A stretch of 64,000 bases of DNA, taken from assembly GCF_018860365.1 (NCBI RefSeq), contig NZ_JAHKPO010000007.1:1-64000 (forward strand), given 5' to 3'. The notes beneath the pieces are model-generated. The model saw only the letters and a list, made by a program, of their open reading frames with translations. It made no database searches and was not told the origin of the DNA. Below are positions 23,843-46,740 of this stretch, in pieces. Numbering within the stretch: position 1 is the first letter of the stretch; every line of letters begins with the position of its first letter. The position numbers were made by a program, and so were the translations under genes. The stretch is from Arenibacter algicola. GTDB lineage: Bacteria; Bacteroidota; Bacteroidia; Flavobacteriales; Flavobacteriaceae.

Positions 23843-26101
23843 ATGAACAAAGCCATTTTCTTTCTTTTTCTTATTCCAATTTTGTCAATAGGCCAAAGCA
23901 CGGACCTAAGATCCAAACCAAATGCAAATCCTATTACAGCTTATATAGATAAGCCTTTTGCTCAGGAATATCATGAGGCATTTATTATTGCCGAAAAAAG
24001 TGAAGACTCCAACAATGTTAGGGCCATTCAACCAGATTTGGAGGGAGGCATCTGGATTGCCACCAAAAATGGTATCTACCAAAAAGAAGTCGGTTCCAAG
24101 GAATGGAAGATAGTAATTAGCGGAGATAACCAAGGCCCGGCCTATGACGTAGAAATTGATAAAGATCAAAATGTTTGGTTGGCCACCTGGAACGGAGTTT
24201 ATAGGAGTAGGTCCGGCGACATCCAAAAAATGGAAGGTCCTAAGCCGCCCATTGCCAAACTGCTATCGGCAAAGGAGGGCGTTTATGCCATGGGGCCATA
24301 TGGAATATGGTTGTACCAAGATAAAAAATGGGTAAAAAGGGATTATAAAACAGCGAGAAGTATTCGCACCGTGTTGTCCGACAATAACGGCGGACTGTGG
24401 ATAGGTACAGACGTGGGCCTTTACCACTGTACGGATGAAAAAACTACGGCATATCAGGGAAACGACGATTTAATCAGTGCTTATGTTCGGGGAATGGATT
24501 TTGACCAAGAGGGAAATATATGGATAGGGGGCTTGGGGGGAGTTTCCATTAGAAACAAAACTGCAAAAATTGGAGAAAAAACGTCTGAAGATGGGATTGT
24601 CAATGCCAATGTAACTGCTGTGGCAAAGGGTCCAGACGGCAGGATATGGGTGGGAACCCAATACGGGATAACCAGATTTGTCCCGGGAGAAAAAGAATAT
24701 TCCGTTAGATTGGGCAGGCGTTGGTTGGTATCTAACGAGGTGAGGGATATTGCATTCGACCAACAGGGAAATGCATGGGTTGCCACTGCTAATGGAGTAA
24801 GTGCCATAAAGAACAGGCAAATGACACTTGAAGGTAAGGCGGACTATTTTTATGATAAATTGATAAGGCGCCATGTCCGCGAACCATGGATAATAGCCCG
24901 TTCCAAATTAGCGGTGCCTGGCGATACCACGACCATACAGCCGGAGGACGACGATAATGATGGGGAGTTTACCTCCAATTATCTGGCCATGGAATCCTTT
25001 AGGTATGCAACAACCAAAAATCCGGAAGCCAGGGAAAGAGCTGGAAAGGCATTCGATTTCTTACATTTTTTAAGGGAAGTAACGGGTGAAGATGGTTTTT
25101 TTGCAAGGACCATAATTCCAGCTTCCTGGGAACAATCCCATGATATGAACCGCACTTACACCGAGCGCGAATTGGCCGAGGAAATTATTGATAATCCCAG
25201 ACAAAAGCCGGTAGAAAAGCGTTGGCATGTTTCCAAGGATGGCAAATGGAAGTGGAAGGGAGATACCAGTAGCGATGAGATTTCTGGGCACCTATTCGGT
25301 TATTATTGTTACTATAGCCTAGTGGCGGATGATAAGGAAAAAAAGCGGGTAGCCGATCATTTCAGCAAAATTATGGACCATTTGATGGAGAACGATTTTA
25401 ACCTGGTAGATGTGGATGGAACCCATACCAAGTGGGGCGTTTGGTCCCCGAATATTCTGAACCACAATCCCGATTGGGCTCCGGAAAGGGCATTGAACTC
25501 TTTGGAGTTGCTAGCTTTCTTAAAGTTTGCCCATCACATTACCAAAAAAGAAAAGTATCAAAAGGAATATTTGAAATTGATAAAGGAAGAAGGGTATTTG
25601 GAAAACGCTAAAACCTTGCACAACACCAACCCTTCCTGGGAGACTTATTTTGACATCTTTTTGTCCCTATACATGTATCCAATTTTAATAAACTATGAGG
25701 AAGATCCAGCTTTGAAGAGGGAGTATCAAGACCATTTGGAGCAATGGTTCAAGAAGCATAAAAAAGCAAAGAGCCCCATGATCAATTTTACTTACAATCT
25801 TCTAACAGGGGGGTCCGATGAGTTGGATAGCTCTATAGGTTTCCTGAAGGACGCTCCCTTGGACTTGGTAGATTGGTATGTTGACAATGCACAAAGGGAA
25901 GACCTTAAGGTAGTTCGGCAGCCTATTCTTGAAGAGCTTCAGACAGCCTTGCGCCCACCAAGTGAATACCGAACCATGAGATGGGATCAAAACCCTTATG
26001 TTGCGGTCAGCGGCGACCCGTCTCAGGAAAAAGAACCTGTTTATTGGCTGTTACCGTACTGGATGGGACGATATTTAAACTTGATATCGGCGGAAAAGTA
26101 A
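23843..26101 (+). CDS. Secreted propeller protein with C-terminal alpha-helical, glycosidase-like region
   Basis: A 752-residue protein with a signal peptide (MNKAIFFLFLIPILSIGQ). Residues about 55-325 contain at least six propeller repeats of the two-component-regulator type (GGIWIATKNGIYQ, NVWLATWNGVYR, GGLWIGTDVGLYH, NIWIGGLGGVSI, RIWVGTQYGITR, NAWVATANGVSA). Instead of the transmembrane helix, kinase and regulator domains found in hybrid sensors, residues 330-752 are Trp-, Tyr- and His-rich and mostly helical, resembling an (alpha/alpha) toroid. I see no known glycoside hydrolase signature. It may recognise or cleave a carbohydrate. It ends 34 bp before the convergent response regulator gene. 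Confident as a gene, uncertain in function. Confidence 0.8.
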   Translation: MNKAIFFLFLIPILSIGQSTDLRSKPNANPITAYIDKPFAQEYHEAFIIAEKSEDSNNVRAIQPDLEGGIWIATKNGIYQKEVGSKEWKIVISGDNQGPAYDVEIDKDQNVWLATWNGVYRSRSGDIQKMEGPKPPIAKLLSAKEGVYAMGPYGIWLYQDKKWVKRDYKTARSIRTVLSDNNGGLWIGTDVGLYHCTDEKTTAYQGNDDLISAYVRGMDFDQEGNIWIGGLGGVSIRNKTAKIGEKTSEDGIVNANVTAVAKGPDGRIWVGTQYGITRFVPGEKEYSVRLGRRWLVSNEVRDIAFDQQGNAWVATANGVSAIKNRQMTLEGKADYFYDKLIRRHVREPWIIARSKLAVPGDTTTIQPEDDDNDGEFTSNYLAMESFRYATTKNPEARERAGKAFDFLHFLREVTGEDGFFARTIIPASWEQSHDMNRTYTERELAEEIIDNPRQKPVEKRWHVSKDGKWKWKGDTSSDEISGHLFGYYCYYSLVADDKEKKRVADHFSKIMDHLMENDFNLVDVDGTHTKWGVWSPNILNHNPDWAPERALNSLELLAFLKFAHHITKKEKYQKEYLKLIKEEGYLENAKTLHNTNPSWETYFDIFLSLYMYPILINYEEDPALKREYQDHLEQWFKKHKKAKSPMINFTYNLLTGGSDELDSSIGFLKDAPLDLVDWYVDNAQREDLKVVRQPILEELQTALRPPSEYRTMRWDQNPYVAVSGDPSQEKEPVYWLLPYWMGRYLNLISAEK

Positions 26102-26135: not shown

Positions 26136-26813
26136 TTAAAAAAGATTCTTTTTTACCAGCTCATAATAACTGGCACTTACAGGAATGACCGCTTTTTCAA
26201 TCAGCAGATCCCGGCCCTTTAAAGCGTTAACTTTTGCTTTGTTAACGATGTATGATCTATGGACCCTCATGAAACTTTGTGCTGGGAGCTTTTTCTCCAG
26301 AGCGCTAAGGCTCTGGTTGCTCATAATCTTTCCCTGTGGGGTGTGATAAATGACATATTCGCTATCGCTCTCAATATATAGAATGGAATCGAACTTAATT
26401 TTATGTAGGTCATAGCCCGATTTAACGATTATTGAATCCTCTGCGGCTTCCTGGTCAGTGTCTATTTTTATTTTGTTGACAGCCTTTAAAAAGCGTTCAA
26501 AAGTAATTGGCTTTAAGAGATAATCTATGGCATTTAGTTCAAAACCTTCCAAGGCGTATTCCGAGTATGCCGTTGTAAAGATGACCTGAGTTGATGGCGG
26601 AATCATTTTTGCAAACTCTGTACCTTTAATTTCGGGCATTTGGATGTCCAGTAGTAACAGATCTATTTTTTGTTCCTTAAGCACTTTTATGGCATCCAAG
26701 GGATTTTCGAAGTCGGCCACCAATTCCAAAAAATTCACTTTTGCAATATAGGTTTTGAGGAGGCTTCGGGCCAACTCTTCGTCGTCTACAATTAAACATT
26801 TAATGGTTCCCAT
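26136..26813 (-). CDS. LytTR-family response regulator (pair 1)
   Basis: A 225-residue cytoplasmic regulator. The receiver domain covers residues 1-115, with acidic residues D10 and D11, phosphoacceptor D56 in LLLLDIQMP and K101 in YLLKP. Residues about 125-225 are a LytTR DNA-binding domain (FMRVHRSYIVNKAKV). Its ATG overlaps the end of the kinase gene by 14 bp, so the pair is translationally coupled. LytTR proteins bind short direct repeats spaced about two helical turns; such repeats occur in the intergenic region beyond the kinase (27902-27949), pointing to the YHYH/SCO operon as a likely target. Confidence 0.95.
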   Translation of the reverse strand: MGTIKCLIVDDEELARSLLKTYIAKVNFLELVADFENPLDAIKVLKEQKIDLLLLDIQMPEIKGTEFAKMIPPSTQVIFTTAYSEYALEGFELNAIDYLLKPITFERFLKAVNKIKIDTDQEAAEDSIIVKSGYDLHKIKFDSILYIESDSEYVIYHTPQGKIMSNQSLSALEKKLPAQSFMRVHRSYIVNKAKVNALKGRDLLIEKAVIPVSASYYELVKKNLF

Positions 26814-27831
26814 TCAGATCTATGTGTAGTTGAACTTTAAAAGTAGTTAATTCTTTTTGGATCTTTAAGGTATGCTTTTTTGGGTATAGTATTTCCAATC
26901 TTTTCTTTACGTTTTCCAGGCCTATTCCTCCAATTTTGTCTTTTTGCATCGATTCCTTGGGGATGCTGTTTTCAATTTCAAAATTGATGTTTTTATCGTC
27001 GGAGAAGATACTTATTTTTAAAAAAGCATCTGTTATCTTTTCCAAATTACCGTGTTTTAGGGCATTTTCAACAAAGGGAATGAATAGCATGGGTGCTACC
27101 TGCACAGCATCGTTTTTTATTTGAAATTCAGTTTGTATGGGATAGGTTTTGCTACTTTTTAAGACGTACATGGCCAAATAGTCCTTTATATAGTCGACCT
27201 CTTTTCCTAAAGGTACAAACGCTTGTTCACATTCGTACAGAACATAACGCAACATATTGGAAAGGGTACTGATACCTTGTTGGGTCTTGTCCGAATTGGT
27301 AACCGAAAGCGCATAAATATTGTTCAGGGAATTGAACAAAAAATGTGGGTTGATCTGCGATTTCAGTAGTTTTAATTCAGTTTGCAAATTTTCATTCCTG
27401 TTCCTAATATTTTCTTCCTCCTTCTTTTGGGCAAACAAAAATGTCTCCATAAAAGTGGCTAGTACATAGGCAATGGACAATACCAAAAAATGGATCAAAA
27501 ATTGGGGTGGAACCCTAGGGCGCATTGCGGGCGGTGGACCTGCCTGGCGAGGTGGTTGACCTGAAATCAGTCCCACAAAAGGTTCAGAAATAATTGATGC
27601 GCAAAAAACGATCAAGGCCAAGGAAATCAATATAAATGGTACATACCTTTTTTTGAACAAAAGTGCGGGTGCCGTGTAATAGATCAGAACGGCAATGACC
27701 ACAATTTGCAAAAGAAAAGAGGGTGCGTTCTTTTTGGCAAAGACTACATCATCTGTCATAAGCAACCAGGCCATGAGCCATACGGCTAGCCATAATACCG
27801 TGTGAAAAAGAAATCGTTTTGTTCTGTCCAT
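26800..27831 (-). CDS. LytS/YehU-type sensor histidine kinase (pair 1)
   Basis: A 343-residue inner-membrane kinase. Four hydrophobic segments lie at about 8-26, 38-56, 63-83 and 112-132, with a Pro/Arg-rich loop (GQPPRQAGPP, about 91-110) between the third and fourth. The cytoplasmic part has the His_kinase core NPHFLFNSLNNIY with H163, followed by a HATPase domain (PFVENALKHG, GIGLENVKKRLEILY). No PAS or large periplasmic sensor domain is present, so the signal is probably sensed in or near the membrane. It is divergent from the EF-hand/YHYH operon, with 191 bp between the start codons. Confidence 0.95.
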   Translation of the reverse strand: MDRTKRFLFHTVLWLAVWLMAWLLMTDDVVFAKKNAPSFLLQIVVIAVLIYYTAPALLFKKRYVPFILISLALIVFCASIISEPFVGLISGQPPRQAGPPPAMRPRVPPQFLIHFLVLSIAYVLATFMETFLFAQKKEEENIRNRNENLQTELKLLKSQINPHFLFNSLNNIYALSVTNSDKTQQGISTLSNMLRYVLYECEQAFVPLGKEVDYIKDYLAMYVLKSSKTYPIQTEFQIKNDAVQVAPMLFIPFVENALKHGNLEKITDAFLKISIFSDDKNINFEIENSIPKESMQKDKIGGIGLENVKKRLEILYPKKHTLKIQKELTTFKVQLHIDLNGNH

Positions 27832-28022: not shown

Positions 28023-28313
28023 ATGAAAAAAATGATAGTAAAATCGGCAATGTTAACAGCAATGGTAACCTTATTTTTTAGCGCTAATCTTAATGCACAA
28101 CAACCTCAGGGTGGGCAAGGACAAAAAGAGCGGCCTTCCGTAGATCAAATTTTTAAGGAAATGGACAAGGATGAAGACGGAAAATTATCCAAAGAGGAAT
28201 TGAAAGGCCCTATCAAGGATGATTTCGCCAAGATAGATACGGATGAGGATGGCTACATCACTAAAGAGGAGTTGGAGAAAGCGCCTAAACCTAAAGGACG
28301 TAAACGTGAATAG
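28023..28313 (+). CDS. Small secreted EF-hand protein
   Basis: A 96-residue protein with a signal peptide (residues 1-26, ending NLNAQ). Two canonical EF-hand loops follow: D48-E59 (DKDEDGKLSKEE) and D72-E83 (DTDEDGYITKEE), both with Asp at positions 1, 3 and 5, Gly at 6 and Glu at 12, so both should bind calcium. The tail is basic (PKPKGRKRE). It is the first gene of a co-directional series and is 35 bp upstream of a YHYH lipoprotein gene. An extracytoplasmic calcium-dependent role is inferred. Confidence 0.9.
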   Translation: MKKMIVKSAMLTAMVTLFFSANLNAQQPQGGQGQKERPSVDQIFKEMDKDEDGKLSKEELKGPIKDDFAKIDTDEDGYITKEELEKAPKPKGRKRE

Positions 28314-28348
28314 GGAATGAACTTAAGTGTAATTATAAAATTGAAATT

Positions 28349-29356
28349 ATGACGAATAAATTTTCATATTTAATAGTAGGTGCCGTGCTCTTCATGTCCT
28401 ACCTAAGCTGTAGCAATGATAGTGAGGATACTGCGGACGGCACGGATGATAGTGAAACAGTGGATGAATCTGCTGTGGTAAATGTTGATCCATCTTACTT
28501 TTATACGGCAGATGGATCGGTCACGATTACTACTGTACCCTGTACATTGTCAGATGGCACCGAAACGGATTGCTACCAAATTGTTACCTCCAGTTTGGCC
28601 GGAGATCACGAAATGGGGCCTTGGTGCCCGGACAATATCGACGACGATGCGGAGGCAGGGGGCATATGGCTGGAAGGCGGGGAAGTTTATGATGTGGATG
28701 GTGCCTTTGTTGAAAATTTGGCGACATTTTACGACGATACCAATTGGTTATTATATGATAGCAACGGAGATATTTATGTAACGGATACCGAAGAAGATTG
28801 TGAGAATGCCGCCAACCCAAATGTGGGCGCCGAGTATGAGAACTTCTGTGTAGAATGCCTCCCTTCCTATATTACCGATTTAAGTCAAACTTGGGTAATA
28901 CCAGTAACGCCGGTAATACAGGCTAGTCCAACTTTATTTACTACCGCAGGAGGAGGGCCTCCGGGAGCGGGCAATTCGGCACCTTCGACTCGTGGAGTAG
29001 CTTTGAACGGTATTGAATTTTCTGCTCCTGCACCTGTGGATAATATACTTGGGGCATACACCCTTGCCCCTTTTGATGATGCTGGCGGACATATTAATGT
29101 ACATCAGGGATACCACTACCATGCAGCTACAGGATTCGGGACACAAATAGCGCAGGACGATGGGCATGCAGCTTTGATCGGATACGCCTTGGACGGATTC
29201 GGAATATATGCTTTGGAAGATGCCAATGGCGATAGCCCTTCCGACTTGGATGAATTAAGGGGGCATACGGATGATGCTAGAGGGTATCATTACCATGTAG
29301 ACGCTGCCGGCAATAATAATTTTATAAATGGTTTAAAGGGAGCTTACGTCAATTGA
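28349..29356 (+). CDS. YHYH-domain lipoprotein 1
   Basis: A 335-residue lipoprotein; the signal peptide ends at Cys21 in the lipobox YLSC and is followed by an acidic linker. Residues 60-100 hold a Cys-containing block (C65, C75, C93; CTLSDG, DCYQIV, WCPDNIDDD) that recurs in YHYH protein 2. The C-terminal half is the YHYH domain, with YHYH at 255-258 and 313-316 plus nearby GGH and GH motifs. The clustered His residues suggest metal binding; this is inference, as the family has no firm function known to me. It shares an operon with two further YHYH lipoproteins and a SCO protein. Confidence 0.9.
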   Translation: MTNKFSYLIVGAVLFMSYLSCSNDSEDTADGTDDSETVDESAVVNVDPSYFYTADGSVTITTVPCTLSDGTETDCYQIVTSSLAGDHEMGPWCPDNIDDDAEAGGIWLEGGEVYDVDGAFVENLATFYDDTNWLLYDSNGDIYVTDTEEDCENAANPNVGAEYENFCVECLPSYITDLSQTWVIPVTPVIQASPTLFTTAGGGPPGAGNSAPSTRGVALNGIEFSAPAPVDNILGAYTLAPFDDAGGHINVHQGYHYHAATGFGTQIAQDDGHAALIGYALDGFGIYALEDANGDSPSDLDELRGHTDDARGYHYHVDAAGNNNFINGLKGAYVN

Positions 29357-29391
29357 AAGTAATGGTTGGAAAGAGTCTTAATTAGATAGGA

Positions 29392-29417
29392 AGGCCATTC
29401 GAAAAATAGTATGGCCT
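29392..29417 (+). other. Intercistronic stem-loop
   Basis: AGGCCAT (29392-29398) and ATGGCCT (29411-29417) pair around a 12-base loop; the flanking bases (AGATAGGA and TTCCATCT) extend the pairing imperfectly. No T-run follows. It lies between YHYH gene 1 and the next gene and may set mRNA processing or partial termination in the operon. Confidence 0.35.
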
Positions 29418-29454
29418 GTTCCATCTAACCTTTTAAACATAAAAATATAAACAG

Positions 29455-30117
29455 ATGAAAAAATACATGTTACTGCTAGTTGCTTTGGGGTTTTCAATGG
29501 CAAGTTTTGCCCACAATCCCAATGTTTCTACCACAATGCTGGTGGAAAAGGGGAATAACAGTTGGGTATTACAGATAAGTGCATCCCTAACCGCTTTTCA
29601 ACAGGAAGTAAGGACCCATTTTGCTGAAACACCTTATCAATCTCCAGAGGAGTTTCAACAAATGGTGTTGGAGCATATTAAAAACAACCTTCATATCAGC
29701 TTCAATGGGGGAGAGGATATTTCTTTCGGGAACGGAGCCGTAAAACTTGGTCATGAAACCATGGTAGTTTTCGAAGTCTTGGATATTCCCACGGATATAA
29801 ATTCGGTGTTGGTTACAAATACCGCCTTTAAGGACATCCACCAAAATCAGAATGCCCTAATACTTTTAAAGGAAGGATTTAGCAAAGAACATTTTGTTTT
29901 GAACAATGCCAACGATCACACCCTCTCGTTGGCGGTAGCTGGAAATGAATTTGTGGAAGTAGGCAAAAATGAGGCTAGTTTTTTTTCGACCGGTATAGGG
30001 GTCATTTTATTGGGTGTAGCAGCGATTTTGGTTGTGGGGCTTACTGTGTTGGGGGTAGGTCATGTATTTAACAAGCCCGATAAGTCTAAAAAAGTGCCTC
30101 TTACCGTAGTTCGTTGA
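29455..30117 (+). CDS. Exported protein with C-terminal membrane anchor (DUF6702-like, copy 1)
   Basis: A 220-residue protein: signal peptide ending SFAHNP, a soluble region, and a hydrophobic helix at about 176-203 followed by a basic tail (NKPDKSKKVPLTVVR). The N-terminal pattern (AHNP, then strands such as WVLQISASLTAFQQEV) faintly resembles DUF6702, a family of exported flavobacterial proteins, but I am not certain of the match. A paralogue with the same layout lies at 31180-31803, and each follows a YHYH lipoprotein gene, so the two protein types probably work together at the envelope. Function unknown. Confidence 0.8.
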   Translation: MKKYMLLLVALGFSMASFAHNPNVSTTMLVEKGNNSWVLQISASLTAFQQEVRTHFAETPYQSPEEFQQMVLEHIKNNLHISFNGGEDISFGNGAVKLGHETMVVFEVLDIPTDINSVLVTNTAFKDIHQNQNALILLKEGFSKEHFVLNNANDHTLSLAVAGNEFVEVGKNEASFFSTGIGVILLGVAAILVVGLTVLGVGHVFNKPDKSKKVPLTVVR

Positions 30118-30175
30118 ATTAAATTATTGGGTGCACTAATGGAGATTTAAGGAGATAATAATTAAACAGAAGCAG

Positions 30176-31174
30176 ATGAAAAGAAAAGTAATATCAAAGA
30201 GCAATATGCTAAGGCAATCCCTTGGAATTATCGTATTATTTATTGCGTTTCTCGCTTGCGGTGATGATAGTTCGGAATATGATGAAATTGAAGACGAAGA
30301 GGTAGCCGATGCTGTAATTCAAGAATCTTTTTTTAATTCCACTTCCCTGATTTCCTATACCAAGGTGGATTGTACCTTGGAGGACGGATCTACGGGCGAC
30401 TGCTATAAATTGGTATTTTCCAGCAATCCAGTGGAAGATGGACCATATTGCCCAGAGACCATAGATGATATAGGGGGCTTGGGGATTTATGATGGTGCCA
30501 CAGATCCTGGTTTTCAGGTGTTGAAGGCCACCTTGTTCAATGCGATGGAAGCGGATGGCTATGATATTATTGACGATGAGGGCAACATCAATATAGATGA
30601 TTTTGCTTCTGGTCCTGCCGACCCTGATTTGGCATATTGTTTGGAAGCGGCTCCCGATAATGATCTTCAGCTTACCTTCCTGATTCCGGCAACCCCAAAA
30701 TTGGGATCCACAAATGATGTTATTGGTACTATAGACCTGGTTGGTGTTTCACTCGATGGAGTTCCCATCAATGGTGCCCCACCTTCTGTTGCCAATCCAG
30801 GAAGGGAAAAAGCAGGAAATATTCCTTCCTTGGATCCTTGCGGAGGTCATAATGACCCGGCTGGTTATTATCATTGGCATTTTGTGGCAGAGACCATGAA
30901 CCTAGTGCTGGACGCTTATAATATAACCGATGTATCCTGTACCTTGATAGACCAAGTTTCCGGAACCCAGTTAATTGGTTTTGCCAAGGATGGTTTTCCC
31001 ATCTATGCCTATGAGGTAGAACCATCGGATTTGGATGATTGTGGGGGCAGAACTTCCAGTACCACGGAATACCCGGATGGTGTATATCATTATGTTGCCA
31101 GTAATACGGATGCTCCCAATGTTCCAAAATGCCTTAAAGGTGTAGCGGCAAGTAATAACTTTAGTTACCAATAA
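30176..31174 (+). CDS. YHYH-domain lipoprotein 2 (variant motifs)
   Basis: A 332-residue lipoprotein with Cys28 in the lipobox FLAC and an acidic linker. Residues 60-100 repeat the Cys block of YHYH protein 1 (CTLEDG at 66, DCYKLV, YCPETIDD). The YHYH domain has degenerate copies: YHWH at 232-235 and YHYV at 304-307. It has more Cys residues in this domain than its two paralogues (C222, C255, C289). GFAKDGFPIYAYE matches the family signature. It ends 5 bp before the next gene, so tight coupling is likely. Metal binding is inferred from the His/Cys clustering. Confidence 0.88.
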   Translation: MKRKVISKSNMLRQSLGIIVLFIAFLACGDDSSEYDEIEDEEVADAVIQESFFNSTSLISYTKVDCTLEDGSTGDCYKLVFSSNPVEDGPYCPETIDDIGGLGIYDGATDPGFQVLKATLFNAMEADGYDIIDDEGNINIDDFASGPADPDLAYCLEAAPDNDLQLTFLIPATPKLGSTNDVIGTIDLVGVSLDGVPINGAPPSVANPGREKAGNIPSLDPCGGHNDPAGYYHWHFVAETMNLVLDAYNITDVSCTLIDQVSGTQLIGFAKDGFPIYAYEVEPSDLDDCGGRTSSTTEYPDGVYHYVASNTDAPNVPKCLKGVAASNNFSYQ

Positions 31175-31179
31175 AAAGG

Positions 31180-31803
31180 ATGACAAAAAAAATACTGATT
31201 TTTTGCATACTGATGGTGCTGTCCTCCAAAATGACACTTGCCCATAACCCATTGTCGGCCATGTATTATTTCGAGGTAAAAGGCGAGTTGGGGATATTGA
31301 ATGTTAGCCTTAGTCAGGCTGGCCTGCAAGAGGCCTTGCTAAAACACTATTCAGGAACCGATTTCAGTCTATTGACGGAGGTGGACTACAAGCAATTGGC
31401 GGTGGATTATATAAAGGAGAATTTCCATTTGACTGTAAATGGCGATCCAATCTACTTGGAGAATGGAGGGTTGAAGCTGGGAAACCATCAAACGGATCTA
31501 AAATTTATAAGCTCCGAATTGCCCAAGGAGTTCAATAATCTTGATGTTGCCATAAATGCCTTTAGGGAAAATGACCATCATCAAACTATTTTCTCATGGT
31601 CATTAAATGACATTACGGACAAGCTTATTCTAAAGGAAGACAACGAATACAGGGCCTCAGTGGTATTTAAGAACAATAAAATGGTTGTCCAAAATAGGAG
31701 AATCAATACCAATTACTTGTGGTTCATCGCCATTGTTCCATTTTTTATAGTGGGTAGAAAGCTGCTGTTGTCACCTAAGCTGAATCAAAAGAAGTTGGAA
31801 TAG
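31180..31803 (+). CDS. Exported protein with C-terminal membrane anchor (DUF6702-like, copy 2)
   Basis: A 207-residue paralogue of the 29455-30117 product. It has a signal peptide ending LAHNP, a soluble domain with the same pattern (VSLSQAGLQEALLKHYSG, LAVDYIKENFHLTVNGD against MVLEHIKNNLHISFNGG), a hydrophobic helix at about 180-195 (YLWFIAIVPFFIVG) and a basic tail. It starts 5 bp after YHYH gene 2. The alternation of YHYH lipoprotein and this membrane protein suggests a duplicated two-gene module. Confidence 0.8.
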   Translation: MTKKILIFCILMVLSSKMTLAHNPLSAMYYFEVKGELGILNVSLSQAGLQEALLKHYSGTDFSLLTEVDYKQLAVDYIKENFHLTVNGDPIYLENGGLKLGNHQTDLKFISSELPKEFNNLDVAINAFRENDHHQTIFSWSLNDITDKLILKEDNEYRASVVFKNNKMVVQNRRINTNYLWFIAIVPFFIVGRKLLLSPKLNQKKLE

Positions 31804-31855
31804 CAGTCATTAATGGAATGTATTAGATATTCAATCCTAAAAAAACATCAAGACT

Positions 31856-31996
31856 ATGAGATTATGGAAAAACATATGGGACCAGTTCAAGATTGCGGGT
31901 AATGAACCCAATCTCTGGTGGGCCTTTATTGTTTCCTGTGTTGTAATAGTACTGGCAGTATTGGTTATTTATAAAATGATCAAACCCGTAAAATAG
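31856..31996 (+). CDS. 46-residue single-TM membrane protein
   Basis: Start ATG at 31856, stop TAG at 31994-31996. The product begins MRLWKNIWDQFKIAGNEPNL and continues with WWAFIVSCVVIVLAVLVIYK, a clear transmembrane helix, ending in a basic MIKPVK tail. The amphipathic N-terminus, single helix and positive tail make a plausible small membrane protein. It is in line with the operon, 52 bp after the preceding gene. Small membrane peptides often belong to respiratory or transport complexes; no family is recognised here. Confidence 0.7.
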   Translation: MRLWKNIWDQFKIAGNEPNLWWAFIVSCVVIVLAVLVIYKMIKPVK

Positions 31997-32013
31997 CCTA
32001 AACCCATTAGGCT
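31995..32013 (+). other. Weak stem-loop after the small membrane gene
   Basis: AGCCTAA and TTAGGCT form a 7-bp stem with a five-base loop, overlapping the stop codon of the 46-residue gene. The following bases (TAAAATTGG) are not a T-run, so at most partial termination or mRNA processing is expected before YHYH gene 3. Confidence 0.3.
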
Positions 32014-32168
32014 TAAAATTGGTTTACCGATCAATGCCCATTATTGACTTAAAAGAGTGGGCAGTTCATGGATTTGCAGATTTTGATGCTGCCTGATTTA
32101 CGAGATTTGTCATAACACAAACACAGAATAAACAGAAGTAATAACGAAAACCCCCTAAATTAAAAGAC

Positions 32169-32933
32169 ATGAAAAAAGAAGTAAAAGTGAATAAAAGTAT
32201 CATGACAATAGCAATGGGTGTGACCTTGCTTTTAACTACCCTAATTGCCTGTAGTGCAGATAGTGCTTCCGATGAGGATACTGAAGAAACTGTTGTAACC
32301 GAATTGCACGCTGCATTTTCAGCCTTTAATTCCGATGCCACCACTATTTATTTGGATGGGTCCAATGTAGTAATAGAAACTACTGGTTTGCCCAACCATG
32401 AAACGGTTTATTGGGGAGAAGGAAATTCCCTATATAAGGAGGAACCCGATGTGGATAGAACGCCAAGCATCATGTCCAGTAACAACAATGCTACTACCAT
32501 TGTGGTGGATGCAACCCCTAATTTAACGGGAAGTACAGTATCCACTCAATTGAATACTATAGGCATTGCCGTAAGCGGGGCCTCCATTTTTAACGATCAA
32601 GAAGGAGGCGGCCCATTAAACCAGGCAGCGGCAAGTTTGGACTGGACAGGTGCCCATATTGGTCCTGGTGTTTATCACTACCACTTGGAGCCCAAAGCCT
32701 TCACCGATGATGATGAGAATCTAGTAGGGATACTCTTAGATGGGGTTTTTCTCTACGGTAGAAAATGTACTTCCACCGGGACCTACCCAACAGATTTGGA
32801 TGCTTCGGGCGGACATACTACGGCTACCCAATATACAGATGGCGAAGAGGAGTACCACTATCACATCATCAATGAATTGTATTCAACAACAGGATCTTAT
32901 TTGGCCTTTGCCGGTCCATATCAGGGATACTAA
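32169..32933 (+). CDS. YHYH-domain lipoprotein 3 (short form)
   Basis: A 254-residue lipoprotein with Cys28 in the lipobox LIAC. It lacks the Cys-containing N-terminal block of YHYH proteins 1 and 2 but keeps two intact motifs, YHYH at 169-172 and 229-232, with GGH at 214-216 and GILLDGVFLYG as the family core. One Cys (C200) remains in the domain. It is 12 bp upstream of the MORN-type gene. A His-based metal site is inferred. Confidence 0.9.
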   Translation: MKKEVKVNKSIMTIAMGVTLLLTTLIACSADSASDEDTEETVVTELHAAFSAFNSDATTIYLDGSNVVIETTGLPNHETVYWGEGNSLYKEEPDVDRTPSIMSSNNNATTIVVDATPNLTGSTVSTQLNTIGIAVSGASIFNDQEGGGPLNQAAASLDWTGAHIGPGVYHYHLEPKAFTDDDENLVGILLDGVFLYGRKCTSTGTYPTDLDASGGHTTATQYTDGEEEYHYHIINELYSTTGSYLAFAGPYQGY

Positions 32934-32944
32934 AAAAAAGGACT

Positions 32945-33544
32945 ATGCGACCATTACTTTTATTAATTGTTACTGCCTTATCCCTTATAAACTGTAAAGA
33001 CGCCACTGATATAAAAAGCGAGGAGGGGAAGGCTATTGTAATCTCCAATGTTGAGGTATCCAAACAGGATTTGGTTCTTAACCAAATTGAAGGGAAATGG
33101 TATTATAAAAACCAGCCTTACAATGGGTATTCGGTGAAATTTCATGCCAATGATACCTTGGCGGAAAGACTAGGGTTTCTTAATGGTAAAAGGGAAGGTA
33201 TTGCAAGAAGATGGTCCGAAAATGGAGTGCTTAGGGTAGAATCTACCTATCATCAAAACAAATTGGTAGGAGTGTATAAAAGCTGGTGGGAAAATGGGGT
33301 GTTGGCAGAAGAATCCCATTACGTTAATGGCCTTAAGCAGGGTGAAGAAAAACAATGGTATGCCACCGGACAATTGTCCAAAGTTAGGCAAATGGCAGAA
33401 GGGAAGGAAGAAGGATTGCAAAAGGCCTGGCTGCCCAATGGGAAATTATATGTTAATTATGAAGCCAAAAACGGACGCATTTTTGGAATGCTAAGGGCTA
33501 ATTCATGTTATAAATTGGAAGATGAAGTTGTTGTTAGGGATTAA
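32945..33544 (+). CDS. MORN-repeat (YwqK-like) lipoprotein
   Basis: A 199-residue lipoprotein with Cys17 in LINC. Residues about 48-175 hold five or so MORN-type repeats (YYKNQPYNGYSVKF, NGKREGIARRWSENG, KLVGVYKSWWENG, GLKQGEEKQWYATG, GKEEGLQKAWLPNG), as in the YwqK antitoxin-like family widespread in Bacteroidota. These usually act as binding scaffolds; no toxin partner is visible next to it. Its 3' end overlaps the SCO gene by 23 bp, so the two are translationally coupled. The YWPNG-like YVNYEAKNG and C-terminal Cys are otherwise unremarkable. Confidence 0.85.
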   Translation: MRPLLLLIVTALSLINCKDATDIKSEEGKAIVISNVEVSKQDLVLNQIEGKWYYKNQPYNGYSVKFHANDTLAERLGFLNGKREGIARRWSENGVLRVESTYHQNKLVGVYKSWWENGVLAEESHYVNGLKQGEEKQWYATGQLSKVRQMAEGKEEGLQKAWLPNGKLYVNYEAKNGRIFGMLRANSCYKLEDEVVVRD

Positions 33545-34214
33545 GAATAAGGGGTTGGTGTTGGTTTGTTGGTTGGCATTTTTTACTAGTTGCAAGAATC
33601 AAGTAAAAAAGGAGACTGTTGAAGTAGTGGAGACCAGTAGGGTGGAATATCTTCCCTACTACAGCGATGAATCCTTTACGCCATATTGGTTAACCCCAAA
33701 TAGTGAAGAGGAAAAGAGTTTCCATAAAATTCCGGATTTCAGTTTGGTAAATCAATTGGGGGATACGGTATCCCAAAATACATTTGATGATAAGATATAT
33801 GTTGCGGATTTCTTTTTTACCACTTGTCCTGGTATTTGTTTAAAAATGACGGGTAATATGGTAAAAGTGCAGGAGGCATTTAAGGACGATCCAGAAGTAT
33901 TATTGTTGTCACATTCGGTAACTCCCTCTATAGATTCTGTCCCCATACTTAAGAATTATGCCGAAAAAAATGGAGTAATGGATAATAAATGGCATTTGGT
34001 TACAGGGGATAAAACGGAAATTTACAACCTGGGAAGAAATCAATATTTTGTAGAAAACGATTTGGGGGTGCCAAAGGATATAAACGACTTTTTGCACACA
34101 GAAAACTTCTTATTGGTAGATAAAAACAAACATATTAGGGGTATTTATAATGGGTTGAACAGGGCATCCATAGCCCAACTAATTACAGATATCAAAGCCT
34201 TAAAACTGGAGTAG
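33522..34214 (+). CDS. SCO1/SenC family copper-handling lipoprotein
   Basis: A 230-residue lipoprotein (Cys24 in FTSC) with a thioredoxin-like SCO domain. The copper-binding set is complete: C102 and C106 in CPGIC, and H192 in FLHTENF. SCO proteins deliver copper to cytochrome oxidase CuA sites or act as thiol reductases. No oxidase gene is nearby; the neighbours are His-rich YHYH lipoproteins and a DUF6090 gene, which points to metal delivery to something other than a canonical oxidase. It overlaps the MORN gene by 23 bp. Confidence 0.93.
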   Translation: MKLLLGIKNKGLVLVCWLAFFTSCKNQVKKETVEVVETSRVEYLPYYSDESFTPYWLTPNSEEEKSFHKIPDFSLVNQLGDTVSQNTFDDKIYVADFFFTTCPGICLKMTGNMVKVQEAFKDDPEVLLLSHSVTPSIDSVPILKNYAEKNGVMDNKWHLVTGDKTEIYNLGRNQYFVENDLGVPKDINDFLHTENFLLVDKNKHIRGIYNGLNRASIAQLITDIKALKLE

Positions 34215-34219
34215 TTGCT

Positions 34220-34987
34220 ATGCGTTTATTTGCGAAAATTCGACGGGGTTTCATAATTTCCGGCAAATTCAAAAACTATCTGTTATATGCCTTTGGAGAA
34301 ATATTCCTAATTGTTATAGGTATCCTGATCGCGTGGAAAATCAACGATCTAAATGAAATCAGGAAAAATCGGATAGTGGAGATGAAAATCTATCATAGCC
34401 TGTATGAAGAATTGAATACAAATTTGAAAGTTCTTAATGAGGGCATTGTTAAGTACTCTGGCAATATTAACAGATTGGAAGCTACCATGAGCTACATTGG
34501 CCTGGCTCCCGAACAAATTACGCCAGGGGCCAAGGATACTATAGTGCACATTAATTATGCTCCAATGGTCTTGTTGGACGGGGCCTTAAATTCTGTTATC
34601 AATACTTCTAAATTTGAAATTATTGAAAGCGATTCGTTAAAAACCCTTATAGCCAATTATCCCACTGAAATTGCTGAATTTAAGATTACAGACTCAAAGA
34701 TTAATGATATAGTGGTAAATCATTTGCAGCCGGTATTGGAAAAACATCTTGCCTTAGTAGATATACTTCCACAGGAAAACCCAAAATTTAATAACCTCCG
34801 GGACTTTGGACAAGTTTCCAATTATTACACATTATTGAATACAAAAGAATATCAGAACGCGTTGGTAGATAGATTGATACAAACTGAAAATCTTTTGACC
34901 CAGGCCAAAAAATTAAGGAATCGGACCCAGGTTATGGGCATAAAATTACGCCAGGAGCTGGGGTATCCTGAAGAATATTTACAATAG
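34220..34987 (+). CDS. DUF6090 family membrane protein
   Basis: A 255-residue protein. After a short basic N-terminus, one hydrophobic helix covers about 22-40 (LLYAFGEIFLIVIGILIAWKINDLNE), a pattern typical of DUF6090, common in Flavobacteriia and of unknown function. The remaining 210 residues are polar and mostly helical and probably periplasmic. It begins 5 bp after the SCO gene and is the last gene of the operon before the terminator at 35148. Confidence 0.85.
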   Translation: MRLFAKIRRGFIISGKFKNYLLYAFGEIFLIVIGILIAWKINDLNEIRKNRIVEMKIYHSLYEELNTNLKVLNEGIVKYSGNINRLEATMSYIGLAPEQITPGAKDTIVHINYAPMVLLDGALNSVINTSKFEIIESDSLKTLIANYPTEIAEFKITDSKINDIVVNHLQPVLEKHLALVDILPQENPKFNNLRDFGQVSNYYTLLNTKEYQNALVDRLIQTENLLTQAKKLRNRTQVMGIKLRQELGYPEEYLQ

Positions 34988-35404
34988 AATTTCATTGTGG
35001 ACCAGTACGAATTAGTGCTATAATCGAGCTGTGTTTAATGGAGCCAGTTTAAGCTACTTCGGAAAGCAAAGATTTTGTTGGTGATTATGTAGGTTCCCAT
35101 TAAGATAAGGGGAGATATTCCTCTTAGTTAGTTTAGTTAGATTTAATAGGGAGGTAGTTCCTCCCTTTTTTTATTCATTTGATACTAAATCTAAAAAAAA
35201 AATCAGGAAGTTATTTCAATCCAATTCAGGTTGTTTTAGCGTTTCAACCATTACCCTTGATCATAAAATGAAGTCCAGAAGGCATAAGCCCTCTAGGAAA
35301 TAGCCTTCAAAAACAGCATAATTATGCCAATAATCAATGCTAGAAGCTATCTTTTATTTTTAAAAGTTAATTTTACAGATATTAAGTTTTAAAATAACTA
35401 AAAC
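34988..35404. other. 417-bp intergenic region with terminator
   Basis: No gene is seen. It contains the operon terminator at 35148-35172 and then AT-rich DNA that presumably holds the promoter of the sulfatase/glycosidase cluster. I could not place a convincing flavobacterial promoter box. Confidence 0.6.
35148..35172 (+). terminator. Intrinsic terminator of the YHYH/SCO operon
   Basis: AGGGAGG (35148-35154), a five-base loop, CCTCCCT (35160-35166) and a run of seven T residues (35166-35172). It is a textbook factor-independent terminator, about 160 bp after the DUF6090 stop codon. Confidence 0.85.
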
Positions 35405-36997
35405 ATGATGAAAATGAAATTCTTTGTAGCTGTTCTTGGTTCTGCACTATTATTAACAATCTCCAGTTGTAAGAATAAGACTGAAGAAAAAACAGTGGTC
35501 CAGTCGGAAAGACCCAATATTCTTTTTATAATGTCCGATGACCATACCGCTCAGGCTTGGGGGATTTATGGGGGCATACTCAAGGATTATGTGCATAATC
35601 CGAATATTAAACGGTTGGCTGCAGAGGGTTGCGTTTTGGAGAATTGTTTAGTTTCCAATTCCATTTGTACTCCCAGTAGGGCAACGATCCTCACCGGTCA
35701 ATACAGTCACATTAATGGGGTTACCACCTTGGGGGCGGGCCTATCCCCAAACCACAATAATATAGCAAAAGAGCTGCAAAAGGGTGGTTATGCCACATCT
35801 GTTATAGGGAAATGGCATTTAAAACAGGAGCCGGCAGGGTTTGATTATTATGCCGTATTGCCAGGGCAGGGGGATTATTGGAACCCAAGATTGAAAACAG
35901 CGGATAACTGGGAAGACTACTACGGTGGAGGTAAAGTAGTGGAAGGTTTCAGTACGGATATCATTGCCGATAAAACCATGGAGTGGATAGAAAACAGGGA
36001 CAAATCCAAACCCTTTATGGCCATGTGCCATTTTAAGGCTACTCACGAACCCTATGATTACCCTGAACGCTTTAGTCATCTATATCGCGATGAGGAAATT
36101 CCTGTTCCCGATTCTTTTTATGATCAAGGAGCGGAAACTACAGGCCGGGTATTTAAAGGACAATCCATAGATAACCTTCAAAAGCGCTATTTGGCTGCCA
36201 CTGCCGATCCGGAATTGAGAAAAGATTATATGGCCTATCCGGAATTGCCTTTTTCGGTTGAAGGTCTTAGCGCAGATGAGGCAAGAATGAAAACCTATCA
36301 GAAATTTGTAAAGGATTTCATGCGCTGCGGAGCTGCCATTGATGACAATATAGGCAGGTTGTTGGATTATTTGGAAAAATCTGGATTGGCAGAAAACACC
36401 ATAGTTATTTACACGGCTGATCAGGGTTATTTCTTAGGGGAACACGGTTGGTTCGACAAGCGTTTGATCTATGAGGAATCCATTCATATGCCATTTGTCA
36501 TAAGATACCCAAAAGAGATTCCCGCTCGGACCCGTAATGCCGATATCATTGAAAATGCCGATTTCTCGGCCCTGTTTGCGGATTATGCCGGTATAGAGTA
36601 TCCGGAAACCATGCAAGGCCATAGTTTTCGGGAGAACTTAAAAGGAAATACCCCTGCAGATTGGCGCAAGTATGGCTACTATAGGTATTGGGACCATAGC
36701 AAAGACCGACCTGGCCATTTTGGAATTAGGGGAGAGCGTTACAAGCTCGCATTTTATTATGGAAACGGACTCAAAGTAAATGAGTATACCAAAGAAGAAC
36801 AACCAGATAAATATTGGGAATTCTTTGATTTGGAACAGGATCCCAAGGAACTTCGAAACGCCTATGATAATCCTAAATACAAGGATATCATCAAAGAAAT
36901 GAAAGAGGAGATATTAAGGCAAAGGGAAGCCTTGGGGGATACCGATTCGGATAATCCGGAAATACATCAAATTATCGCTGACCATTGGGAAAGTTAG
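35405..36997 (+). CDS. Type I (formylglycine-dependent) sulfatase lipoprotein 1
   Basis: A 530-residue lipoprotein with Cys22 in the lipobox ISSC. The S1 sulfatase signature CTPSRATILTG begins at C88, the residue that must be oxidised to formylglycine. Metal and substrate residues include D45-D46, GKWH at 135-138, and D339/Q340 and H347 in TADQGYFLGEHGW. The C-terminal part (RGERYKLAFYYG, FFDLEQDPKELRNAY) matches the sulfatase C-terminal domain. It hydrolyses sulfate esters of glycans in the periplasm or at the surface. The Met at residue 1, 2 or 4 could be the true start. First gene of the 35405-45963 cluster. Confidence 0.95.
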   Translation: MMKMKFFVAVLGSALLLTISSCKNKTEEKTVVQSERPNILFIMSDDHTAQAWGIYGGILKDYVHNPNIKRLAAEGCVLENCLVSNSICTPSRATILTGQYSHINGVTTLGAGLSPNHNNIAKELQKGGYATSVIGKWHLKQEPAGFDYYAVLPGQGDYWNPRLKTADNWEDYYGGGKVVEGFSTDIIADKTMEWIENRDKSKPFMAMCHFKATHEPYDYPERFSHLYRDEEIPVPDSFYDQGAETTGRVFKGQSIDNLQKRYLAATADPELRKDYMAYPELPFSVEGLSADEARMKTYQKFVKDFMRCGAAIDDNIGRLLDYLEKSGLAENTIVIYTADQGYFLGEHGWFDKRLIYEESIHMPFVIRYPKEIPARTRNADIIENADFSALFADYAGIEYPETMQGHSFRENLKGNTPADWRKYGYYRYWDHSKDRPGHFGIRGERYKLAFYYGNGLKVNEYTKEEQPDKYWEFFDLEQDPKELRNAYDNPKYKDIIKEMKEEILRQREALGDTDSDNPEIHQIIADHWES

Positions 36998-37052
36998 GAA
37001 TACAAGGGTGCACTAAATAAGAATTGAGCAATAATGATCAGAAGTTAAACGG

Positions 37053-39353
37053 ATGCAAAGAAGAAATATACTTACCTTATTTTTTGTCCTGTTCTTACTA
37101 ATTGAAGGGACAAAGGCCCAGGAAAAATTAAAATTGTCCTATATACAACCTGCTACAGAATGGACAGAAGCGTTACCAGTGGGCAACGGTAGTCTTGGGG
37201 CTATGATCTATGGAGGTGTTTCACTAGAGCATATTCAATTTAATGAAGAAACGCTTTGGCGTGGACAACCCCACGATTATTCCAACAAAGATGCTGGAGA
37301 TTATTTAAATGAAATACGGCAGTTGCTTACAGAAGGTAAACAAATGGAGGCCCAAAAATTGGCACAGCAAGAGTTTATGAGCGAACCCTTACAGCAAGTG
37401 CATTATCAACCATTTGGTGATATTTATATCGATTTCAAAAACCATGATAACTACACCAATTATAAGCGCGAACTCAATTTAAATAATGCCATTGGTTCGG
37501 TATCCTATACCGTTGAAGGTGTAGAATATAAGCGTGAGGTATTGTCCAGTTTTCCGGATCAGATTATTGCGGTAAACCTAACTTCCAGTAAATCCAAAGC
37601 CCTTAATTTCGATTTGTGGTTAGATGCTATTCATGAAGATAAAGCGGTGAAGACCAATGGTTCTACTCAAACCCTGGAAGTTAAGGTTAAAGATGGCGCT
37701 TTAAGAGGGGTAGCTACCCTAAGGGTTGAAACAAACGGTACCATAAAAACGGTGGGAGGGAAACTTCAAATCTCCAAGGCCTCAAAAGCCACGATCTATT
37801 TAACCGCTGCTACAAATTATATTGATTTTGAAGTCGTTTCAGGGGAGCCTGAAAAAATGGTGCCTGAAATATTGACTAAAGTTGCTAGTACAAATTTCAA
37901 AGCGGTAAAAGAAAAGCATATTTCAGATTACCAATCCTTATACAACCGATTTGAAATTAGTTTTGGGGATAACGGAAAATCCAAAAATCCGACCGATCAA
38001 CGCATTTCCGATTTTAGCAGCGATCCAAACGATCCGCAACTGGTAGCCTTGTATGTAGCATATGCGAGATATCTAACCCTTGCCAGTAGTCGTCCAGGAA
38101 CAAAGCCAGCAACACTTCAAGGTATTTGGAATGATAAATTAACACCCCCATGGTTTAGTAGTTATACCACGAACATTAATTTGGAAATGAATTACTGGCC
38201 GGTGGAAATGTACAATTTAAGTGAATGCCATGAACCATTATTCGATTTAATTGAAGACCTTTCTATTACTGGAGCCAAAGTGGCCAAAGCACACTACAAT
38301 GCCGAGGGTTGGATTGCACACCACAATATTGATATTTGGCGTGGTGCAGCTCCGGTAAACGCATCGCACCACGGTATTTGGTTGGGTGGAGCGGCTTGGT
38401 TAAGTACCCACATTTGGGAGCATTATCTCTTCACCCAAGATAAAGACTTTTTACAAGAGAAGTACCCGTTAATGCGAAGTGCCGCCTTGTTTTACAGTCA
38501 GTTTTTATACGAAGACCCCAACACGGGTTATTTAATTAGTTCACCATCCAACTCCCCGGAAATTGGTGGTTTGGTGGCGGGCCCAACCATGGACCATCAG
38601 TTGATCAGGGCACTGTTTAGAAGTACTATTGAAGCTTCAGAAATTTTAAATACAGATCAGGAATTTGCTTCAACCCTGGAGCCTATGATTGCTAAAATTG
38701 CTCCAAACCAAATAGGAAAGCATGGACAATTACAGGAATGGTTGGAAGATAAGGATGACCCGGAAAATCATCACCGTCATGTTTCACATCTTTGGGCGGT
38801 GCACCCGGGGAATGAAATTAATTATGAGGACACGCCAGATTTAATGGAGGCGGCAAAGCAGTCCTTGGAATATAGAGGTGACAATGGCACCGGCTGGAGT
38901 TTGGCCTGGAAAATTAATTTTTGGTCTCGATTTAGAGATGGCGACCATGCTTACAAGCTATTGCATAAACTTCTAAGTCCTGCCGAAGGTGCGGATGGAA
39001 AAGAAGGTGGAGGTTCGTACCCCAATCTGTTTGATGCACATCCACCATTTCAAATTGATGGAAATTTTGGAGGTGCCTCCGGTATTTTGGAAATGATATT
39101 ACAAAGCCATTTGGATAAAATTGAATTATTGCCAGCGTTGCCGACAGCCCTACCAGAAGGACGTGTTTCGGGTATTGTGGCCAGAGGAGGGTTTGAATTG
39201 TCTTTTTCTTGGAAAAAAAGTCAATTGATAGGCGTTTCGGTACTTTCAAAAAGTGGCATGCCATGTGTTTTAAAATACAAGGATAACACTATTGAATTTG
39301 AAACTGAAGCAGGAAGAACCTATCATTTTGATGGTTTGTTGAACAAAAAATAG
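37053..39353 (+). CDS. GH95 family alpha-L-fucosidase/galactosidase
   Basis: A 766-residue secreted enzyme with a signal peptide ending TKAQ. The N-terminal domain starts with the family hallmark EALPVGNGSLGAMIYGG and NEETLWRG. The (alpha/alpha)6 catalytic domain carries the conserved blocks TTNINLEMNYWP (372-383), GWIAHHNIDIWR, QEWLED (561-566, including E562) and FQIDGNFGG (666-673), which hold the family's catalytic Asn, Glu and Asp residues. GH95 enzymes are inverting and cut terminal alpha-1,2-fucose or, in some members, alpha-L-galactose. It sits between two sulfatases; the next gene starts 9 bp downstream. Confidence 0.95.
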   Translation: MQRRNILTLFFVLFLLIEGTKAQEKLKLSYIQPATEWTEALPVGNGSLGAMIYGGVSLEHIQFNEETLWRGQPHDYSNKDAGDYLNEIRQLLTEGKQMEAQKLAQQEFMSEPLQQVHYQPFGDIYIDFKNHDNYTNYKRELNLNNAIGSVSYTVEGVEYKREVLSSFPDQIIAVNLTSSKSKALNFDLWLDAIHEDKAVKTNGSTQTLEVKVKDGALRGVATLRVETNGTIKTVGGKLQISKASKATIYLTAATNYIDFEVVSGEPEKMVPEILTKVASTNFKAVKEKHISDYQSLYNRFEISFGDNGKSKNPTDQRISDFSSDPNDPQLVALYVAYARYLTLASSRPGTKPATLQGIWNDKLTPPWFSSYTTNINLEMNYWPVEMYNLSECHEPLFDLIEDLSITGAKVAKAHYNAEGWIAHHNIDIWRGAAPVNASHHGIWLGGAAWLSTHIWEHYLFTQDKDFLQEKYPLMRSAALFYSQFLYEDPNTGYLISSPSNSPEIGGLVAGPTMDHQLIRALFRSTIEASEILNTDQEFASTLEPMIAKIAPNQIGKHGQLQEWLEDKDDPENHHRHVSHLWAVHPGNEINYEDTPDLMEAAKQSLEYRGDNGTGWSLAWKINFWSRFRDGDHAYKLLHKLLSPAEGADGKEGGGSYPNLFDAHPPFQIDGNFGGASGILEMILQSHLDKIELLPALPTALPEGRVSGIVARGGFELSFSWKKSQLIGVSVLSKSGMPCVLKYKDNTIEFETEAGRTYHFDGLLNKK

Positions 39354-46014: not shown

Positions 46015-46740
46015 TTACAATCCCAAAAATGCAAAGAATTGTGTCTTATGACTTTCTCCTATAGGAATACGGGTGTCGTTAATTACAATCCGGTTCCTTT
46101 GTATGGTCTTGATCACGTTGACGTTGACTACGAAAGATTTATGTACTCTTATAAACTGGTAATTGGGTAGTTTTTCCATAAGATCCTTAAAGCTTAAAAG
46201 GGTTAAGATAGTCTTGTTGGTACCAGCAATATGAATCTTTAAATAATCCTTGAGACCTTGAATATATTCTATATCATCCAAGTTTATTTTGACATTCTCG
46301 TGTTCGGATTTTACGAAAATAAATTTTTGGTTATCGTTGTTTCCTCCAAAGGAAGGAAAAATATTGCCCTCCGTTGGTTTTACCTTTTGCGCCAAAATTT
46401 CTTTGGTCCGTGAGATGGCCTTTATAAATCTGTGGTAAGGGATCGGCTTCACCAAGTAGTCAACTGCGTTAAGCTCAAAACCTTCCACGGCATATTGGGT
46501 ATAGGCTGTGGTAAAAACAAATAAAGGCCTGTTTTCCAGAGCGTTTATAAATTCCAGACCACTTATTTGGGGCATTTCAATGTCACAAAATATAACATCA
46601 ACTTTTTTTTCCTTAATAACCGTAATGGCATCCAAAGGATTGGTAAATGTGCCAACTACTTCGGTAAAGTCTATTTTTTTGCAATAGTCTGCCAAAACAT
46701 CTATAGCCAGGGGCTCATCATCAATGATTATGCAATTCAT
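46015..46740 (-). CDS. LytTR-family response regulator (pair 2)
   Basis: A 241-residue regulator. Receiver: D7-D8, phosphoacceptor D53 in VIFCDIEMP and K98 in YLVKPI. The LytTR domain covers about 138-241 (FIRVHKSFVVNVNVI). It overlaps the kinase gene by 20 bp. Candidate binding sites are the CTATTT direct repeats at 49293-49365 in the kelch/DUF4270 divergent region, two genes away. Confidence 0.95.
   Translation of the reverse strand: MNCIIIDDEPLAIDVLADYCKKIDFTEVVGTFTNPLDAITVIKEKKVDVIFCDIEMPQISGLEFINALENRPLFVFTTAYTQYAVEGFELNAVDYLVKPIPYHRFIKAISRTKEILAQKVKPTEGNIFPSFGGNNDNQKFIFVKSEHENVKINLDDIEYIQGLKDYLKIHIAGTNKTILTLLSFKDLMEKLPNYQFIRVHKSFVVNVNVIKTIQRNRIVINDTRIPIGESHKTQFFAFLGL

Follow-up and report, generated by a model that had tools for sequence, protein, structure and literature searches.

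A conserved YHYH–SCO operon of Arenibacter algicola that likely encodes an extracytoplasmic metal system

Introduction

What do proteins with the YHYH domain (PF14240) do, and why would three of them be encoded together with a SCO1/SenC protein? Members of this family, for which no function is established, are known from bacteria, phages, and diatoms. In the accessible part of a jumbo-phage survey, the YHYH domain on phage tails is predicted to be a Zn-dependent hydrolase (PMC7824862); as far as their accessible text goes, a pelagimyophage paper lists the domain among carbohydrate-binding or host-recognition domains, and a diatom survey also concerns it. The question is raised here by a stretch of 64,000 nucleotides from Arenibacter algicola (contig NZ_JAHKPO010000007.1, positions 1 to 64,000; hereafter, the window), in which ten co-directional open reading frames (ORFs) occupy positions 28023-34987 of the plus strand in the order EF-hand protein, YHYH1, DUF6702-type protein A, YHYH2, DUF6702-type protein B, 46-amino-acid (aa) transmembrane (TM) peptide, YHYH3, MORN lipoprotein, SCO, and DUF6090-like protein. 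A previous, sequence-only reading had described this operon as a run of nine genes, but its own list sums to ten, all of which are present on one strand. The extracytoplasmic metal system that it proposed is well supported by the linkage of YHYH with SCO, the clustering and ligand motif of the linked SCOs, and the N-terminal His and fold of the DUF6702-type proteins, and we consider it likely that the operon encodes such a system.

Conserved linkage of YHYH and SCO genes

All three YHYH proteins exceed the PF14240 cut-off of 25 bits, namely, the Cys-rich lipoproteins YHYH1 (28349..29356, 335 aa; 40.2 bits, E 4.5e-10) and YHYH2 (30176..31174, 332 aa; 81.6 bits, E 9.2e-23), and YHYH3 (32169..32933, 254 aa; 33.5 bits, E 5.3e-8), a small lipoprotein of the SCO-linked type; signal peptides and lipoboxes were called from the sequence rather than with a dedicated predictor. 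The SCO1/SenC lipoprotein (33522..34214, 230 aa), which carries a CPGIC motif and a downstream His, scores 79.2 bits against PF02630 (cut-off 22.8; E 3.6e-22) and aligns with the solved Sco proteins 4hde and 1xzo. In a phylum sample of 247 evenly drawn Bacteroidota genomes, PF14240 was found in 28, which together contain 69 SCO genes and 49 YHYH sites (54 rows minus five second pieces of the same proteins). A SCO gene lies within 5 kb of 17 of these 49 sites, whereas SCO numbers and genome sizes would predict 0.30, and the 17 linked sites are spread over 13 of 42 clusters and 12 of the 28 genomes, the window's own genome being among the 12. Co-occurrence of YHYH and SCO genes, on which the earlier proposal had been made to depend, is therefore conserved to a greater extent than chance would give. 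When the sites were divided by frame length, a split chosen after the table had been seen, a SCO gene lay within 2.1 kb of each of the 13 sites whose open frame was at most 297 aa, whereas none of the 22 sites with frames of at least 400 aa in the phylum sample was near one, so that the SCO link belongs to the small YHYH type.

The same pairing is found among relatives of YHYH3 in named genomes. Of the 520 loci confirmed there, we considered the 80 that rank best when compared with the window protein, a set biased to its orthologues. Genes at the relative loci were labelled with profiles built in this analysis, with Pfam checks on examples only, and some genomes entered twice under different locus numbers (e.g., L036 and L059), which leaves counts of distinct sequences unaffected. 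Within these best 80, the closest named relatives of the locus are from Arenibacter species, and at all 80 loci a same-strand SCO gene starts 1231-2231 bases past the YHYH3 start. A MORN gene is present at 73 of these loci, an EF-hand gene of the window kind at 64, CotH at 36, a relative of the DUF6090-like gene at 33, YHYH1/2 together with DUF6702 at 20, and VTC with DUF4956 at 6. The system is modular, built around YHYH-(MORN)-SCO. A YHYH2-like match is present in 23 of 100 relatives, the own genome counted, and relatives carry versions of the operon. As a separate observation, the YHYH–SCO clusters L105, L107, L116, and L131 also carry VTC polyphosphate polymerase-like, DUF4956, DUF2490, and CotH genes (by Pfam for L105).

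Ligand conservation and SCO lineage

Across 102 distinct linked SCOs, the CxxxC motif is retained in all and the downstream His in 100. Linked SCOs of several families cluster together, apart from the other SCOs of their own genomes. In a 39-row tree, the linked/other label needs two changes, vs 13.3 in shuffles; in a 33-row tree, which set the linked SCOs against 16 others from ten of the same genomes and left out four very long-branch 'other' SCOs and two Persicobacter SCOs, it needs a single change. A dedicated SCO lineage linked to YHYH is likely rather than proven.

The histidines of the small YHYH proteins are similarly constant: H77, H163, H170, H172, H216, H230, and H232 are kept in 97-100% of 107 distinct sequences, as are D158, D191, and D211. 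The structural model of YHYH3 (pLDDT 78.9, pTM 0.80) matches phage YHYH proteins in a fold search of a viral library (best E 3.6e-8), and sequence and fold searches among solved structures returned no match for YHYH. YHYH3-type proteins with a recognised lipobox have at most one Cys past it in 75 of 85 cases, which makes SCO unlikely as a disulfide reductase of YHYH3. At positions +2 to +9 after the lipid-bearing Cys, YHYH3 has on average 2.51 acidic and 0.14 basic residues and CotH 2.80 and 0.16, with corresponding values of 1.08 and 0.92 for YHYH1/2, 1.60 and 2.72 for SCO, and 1.19 and 1.53 for MORN. YHYH3 and CotH, but not SCO and MORN, thus have acid-rich N-termini like those of Bacteroidota surface lipoproteins, for which the accessible part of the description of the lipoprotein export signal gives a consensus of polar then acidic residues after the lipid-bearing Cys (PMC5080379).

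DUF6702-type proteins

The two paralogous TM-anchored proteins noted in the sequence-only reading are indeed present and are 25% identical over the aligned ectodomain, but it had not recognised them as DUF6702-type proteins and putative metal binders. Protein A (29455..30117) passes the PF20420 cut-off of 24 bits with 25.3 bits, whereas protein B (31180..31803) stays below it with 13.9. Both are predicted to be membrane-anchored and have a His directly past the signal peptide, as do 35 of 36 distinct DUF6702-type members, these two included, compared with 21 of 905 in a control under a simple hydrophobicity rule; the sole exception, L064, may have a misplaced start. The count of 35 of 36 is the fair one, because the rows of a 26-row alignment were cut at His1, which is invariant there by construction. 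Beyond His1, that alignment contains no invariant His, with H81 present in at least 90% of the rows; a His near the published His28/His32 ligands is found at position 36 of A and 35 of B and is absent in some relatives. The model of protein A is a beta-sandwich in which two helices separate strand 2 from strand 3, as in Ang-1 and ZrgA, and its best matches in a fold search of the PDB are ZrgA, copper-bound Ang-1, and PA4063. By their N-terminal His and predicted fold, the DUF6702-type proteins appear to match metal-capture proteins.

Genomic neighborhoods of other YHYH genes

At 40 loci of the phylum sample, comprising the clusters outside G000 and G018, genes for SCO, MauG, MbnP, multicopper oxidase, or DUF6702 lie within three ORFs of YHYH in 23 cases (P = 1.2e-8, a value inflated by the choice of the metal-linked families after the neighbours had been seen). 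According to Pfam, genes for MbnP and di-haem MauG adjoin large YHYH genes in L139, L142, L147, L151, and L155, and multicopper oxidase genes do so in L140 and L166. In the accessible parts of the respective papers, exported proteins with a link to copper, CorA and MopE among them, are counted with the MbnP/MbnH-type pairs (PMC3621798, PMC3912023). Apart from these, an uncharacterised family of lipoproteins of 346-399 aa adjoins YHYH at L164, L166, L167, L112, and L178; a PEBP (YbhB/YbcL-like) gene located between two YHYH genes on a Loktanella plasmid has a profile match in common with this family.

Regulators and remaining genes of the window

The operon is divergent from a LytTR pair, as the earlier reading had it: a LytTR response regulator (26136..26813, minus strand, 225 aa) and a membrane histidine kinase (HisK; 26800..27831, minus strand, 343 aa), spanning 26136-27831. 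The former is probably the regulator of the operon and the latter probably its sensor. A divergent HisK/LytTR pair recurs at the same place in relatives; 35 of the 80 named loci have one, 33 have genes for an extracytoplasmic function (ECF) sigma factor and a Spy-like protein, and 12 have neither. The ECF sigma gene and its Spy-like partner, which we liken to CnrX, can accompany SCO and MbnP versions alike, and both are present at just 5 of the 40 phylum loci. One of seven Spy-like proteins tested is over the Metal_resist cut-off, and an eighth (L155) has no match. On the minus strand at 46015-47782, ORFs of 241 and 353 aa overlap each other and have the lengths of a second HisK/LytTR pair located 3' of the operon in relatives (e.g., L060 and L063). 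A 752-aa propeller-like protein encoded at 23843-26101 on the plus strand, adjoining the regulators, resembles by eye a protein of 746 aa whose gene immediately precedes YHYH3-SCO in L158, which belongs to another family.

Intergenic gaps in the operon range from -23 to about 170 bases, with a 23-base overlap between the MORN and SCO ORFs and the largest gap, from 31996 to 32169, leaving room for an internal promoter upstream of YHYH3. The first gene encodes an exported EF-hand protein (28023..28313, 96 aa; two EF-hands by Pfam). The 46-aa single-TM peptide (31856..31996) is also present in relatives L036, L037, L059, L064, and L085, of which L059 and L085 are apparently the same genomes as L036 and L037. 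The MORN_2 lipoprotein (32945..33544, 199 aa; PF07661 E 8.1e-16) has a single Cys, Cys188, that is retained in all 92 distinct members aligned, a possible candidate for a metal ligand or a SCO partner site. The last gene product (34220..34987, 255 aa), which the earlier reading had assigned to DUF6090, scores 15.9 bits against PF19578, under the curated cut-off of 23.5, and we label this membrane protein DUF6090-like. The terminator placed at the operon end by the same reading corresponds to an intrinsic-terminator-like hairpin with a T run on the plus strand (35148..35166; a stem of 7 pairs, including 5 G-C, followed by TTTTTTATTC); a hairpin scan of the region yielded 11 terminator-like sites against a shuffled mean of 6.8.

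Farther out, a giant open-ended ORF on the minus strand (2-20638, at least 6879 aa) has a signal-like N-terminus and repeated blocks that, read by eye, resemble PKD-type and carbohydrate-binding repeats. Past the terminator, positions 35405-39353 of the plus strand encode, again by eye, a sulfatase-like lipoprotein and a large glycoside-hydrolase-like protein; sulfatase-type genes are found by Pfam within YHYH–SCO clusters of other species, e.g., in L104 between two YHYH-MORN-SCO sets.

Proposed mechanism and alternatives

The most economical model is that SCO delivers copper to the YHYH proteins. The membrane-anchored DUF6702 proteins would capture a scarce transition metal via their N-terminal His, and the dedicated lipid-anchored SCO would handle Cu(I) through its CxxxC motif and His and metallate the YHYH lipoproteins at the near-invariant YHYH histidines. 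YHYH3, with its N-terminus resembling the lipoprotein export signal, would either scavenge copper on the cell surface or serve there as a copper enzyme. Expression would be tuned by the kinase/LytTR pair, in place of which many relatives have the ECF sigma factor and its Spy-like partner. This delivery is favoured because the low Cys count of YHYH3 argues against disulfide reduction and because, in other families, large YHYH genes are neighboured by genes for MbnP/MauG or multicopper oxidase; copper, the best-supported metal, is probably the one involved. For the model as a whole, that is, a modular extracytoplasmic capture-and-loading system, most likely for copper, in which SCO metallates YHYH lipoproteins, we hold the chances to be about even. 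The connection of the small YHYH lipoproteins with a SCO lineage of their own and with metal binders that carry an N-terminal His offers a first biochemical role that can be tested, and it suggests that marine Bacteroidota may acquire or use extracytoplasmic copper in a way not described so far. It is also relevant to the phage YHYH proteins. A more far-reaching idea, which we put forward tentatively and consider rather doubtful, is that the YHYH proteins make up a novel family that holds copper outside the cell, perhaps with enzymatic activity, at a paired Tyr-His-Tyr-His site within an unsolved fold. Its branches would have maturation partners of their own, a dedicated SCO for the small lipoproteins and MauG/MbnP or multicopper oxidase for the large secreted proteins. 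One would then expect this chemistry to be shared by the YHYH proteins of phage tails, currently predicted to be zinc hydrolases, and of diatoms.

Several observations weigh against copper delivery. The long YHYH frames lie away from SCO, SCO is missing from 9 of 27 stretches around YHYH matches in relatives (18 have it), with three of the nine (L040, L042, and L046) containing a YHYH and DUF6702 pair alone, and 17 of the 40 phylum loci have no metal-linked neighbour of the kinds counted above. The single clade of linked SCOs is weakly supported (59/96 in the 33-row tree). YHYH1 and YHYH2 are Cys-rich, so that SCO may have a disulfide role for these two. By Pfam, none of the ten ORFs encodes a transporter, sensor, or enzyme dedicated to copper. 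Finally, the published DUF6702 'metal sequesterase' prefers Ni, which it binds at pM affinity, with Co and Cu at nM (PMC12537917), and ZrgA and PA4063, which make up two of the three best-matching families for the protein A model, are zinc proteins, according to the accessible parts of their descriptions (PMC9820375, PMC8561739). The copper delivery proposed in the sequence-only reading thus stands as the most economical model, but by the DUF6702 class and its relatives the metal could be Ni, Co, or Zn.

The last two points, together with the resemblance of the Spy-like partner in relatives to heavy-metal resistance proteins, would suit a system in which DUF6702 and YHYH bind another transition metal (Zn, Ni, or Co) and SCO functions in redox protection or sensing; we regard this as unlikely, given that no gene accompanies small YHYH more constantly than SCO, whose ligand motif is kept, and that the MbnP/MauG and multicopper oxidase links suggest copper. 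The YHYH proteins might instead be surface zinc-dependent hydrolases, as predicted for phage tails, with SCO as an accessory thiol-disulfide protein. In its favour are the prediction of the jumbo-phage survey, as accessible, of a metal-dependent hydrolase with Zn held by three His and one Asp, the conserved aspartates standing alongside the histidines, and the recovery of phage proteins by the YHYH3 model. However, most YHYH3-type proteins would offer SCO no internal disulfide, and a hydrolase would not account for the links with SCO, MbnP/MauG, and DUF6702, which makes this reading quite improbable. Poorer still, in our judgment, are the prospects of a surface-matrix or adhesion system that would combine extracellular phosphorylation (CotH), calcium (EF-hand), and carbohydrate binding with copper-dependent cross-linking by SCO and YHYH. 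It draws on the frequencies of CotH, EF-hand, and VTC with DUF4956 at the named loci, on genes for Cthe_2159, C-type lectin, and DUF3500 in Arenibacter relatives, and on the acid-rich, surface-lipoprotein-like N-termini of YHYH3 and CotH; however, it lacks a known substrate, Pfam finds no CotH, VTC, Cthe_2159, or lectin genes in the window operon, and the constant core is YHYH–SCO.

Comparison with known systems

As the earlier reading had stated, no described system with this gene set was found in the open literature searched, outside which subscription papers and preprints mostly fall; the accessible part of a Bizionia copper-gene inventory (PMC11213822) includes SCO proteins in its list, from which YHYH is absent. 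The DUF6702 sequesterase and the anglerases Ang-1 and Ang-2 (PMC12537917) share with the window proteins the His after the signal peptide, the two helices between strands 2 and 3, and, for copper-bound Ang-1, the fold match; there, however, the neighbours are an M1 peptidase and a HAD protein, YHYH is unmentioned, and a HupE permease takes the place of the TM anchor, whereas here DUF6702 is paired with YHYH in a SCO operon. The zinc-binding periplasmic proteins ZrgA and PA4063 are, together with Ang-1, the closest solved folds to protein A, but they serve zinc ABC-type uptake, according to the same accessible descriptions, and no transporter gene was recognised by Pfam among the ten ORFs of the window. 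The MbnP/MbnH, MopE, and CorA pairs, in the parts of the papers cited above, likewise comprise exported copper-linked proteins with a dedicated partner, and MbnP/MauG adjoin large YHYH in other families; unlike these pairs, the ten ORFs include neither MbnP (PF20243) nor CCP_MauG by Pfam, and YHYH has no counterpart among solved proteins. Phage YHYH proteins belong to the same domain family and were recovered in the viral-library fold search, but are predicted, in the survey as accessible, to be tail Zn hydrolases, whereas the window YHYH is a SCO-linked lipoprotein. The SCO1/SenC chaperones share family membership, CxxxC and His, and alignment with solved Sco proteins with the window SCO; however, by Pfam the operon contains no cytochrome oxidase genes among its ten ORFs, and the constant partner of SCO is instead a YHYH lipoprotein.

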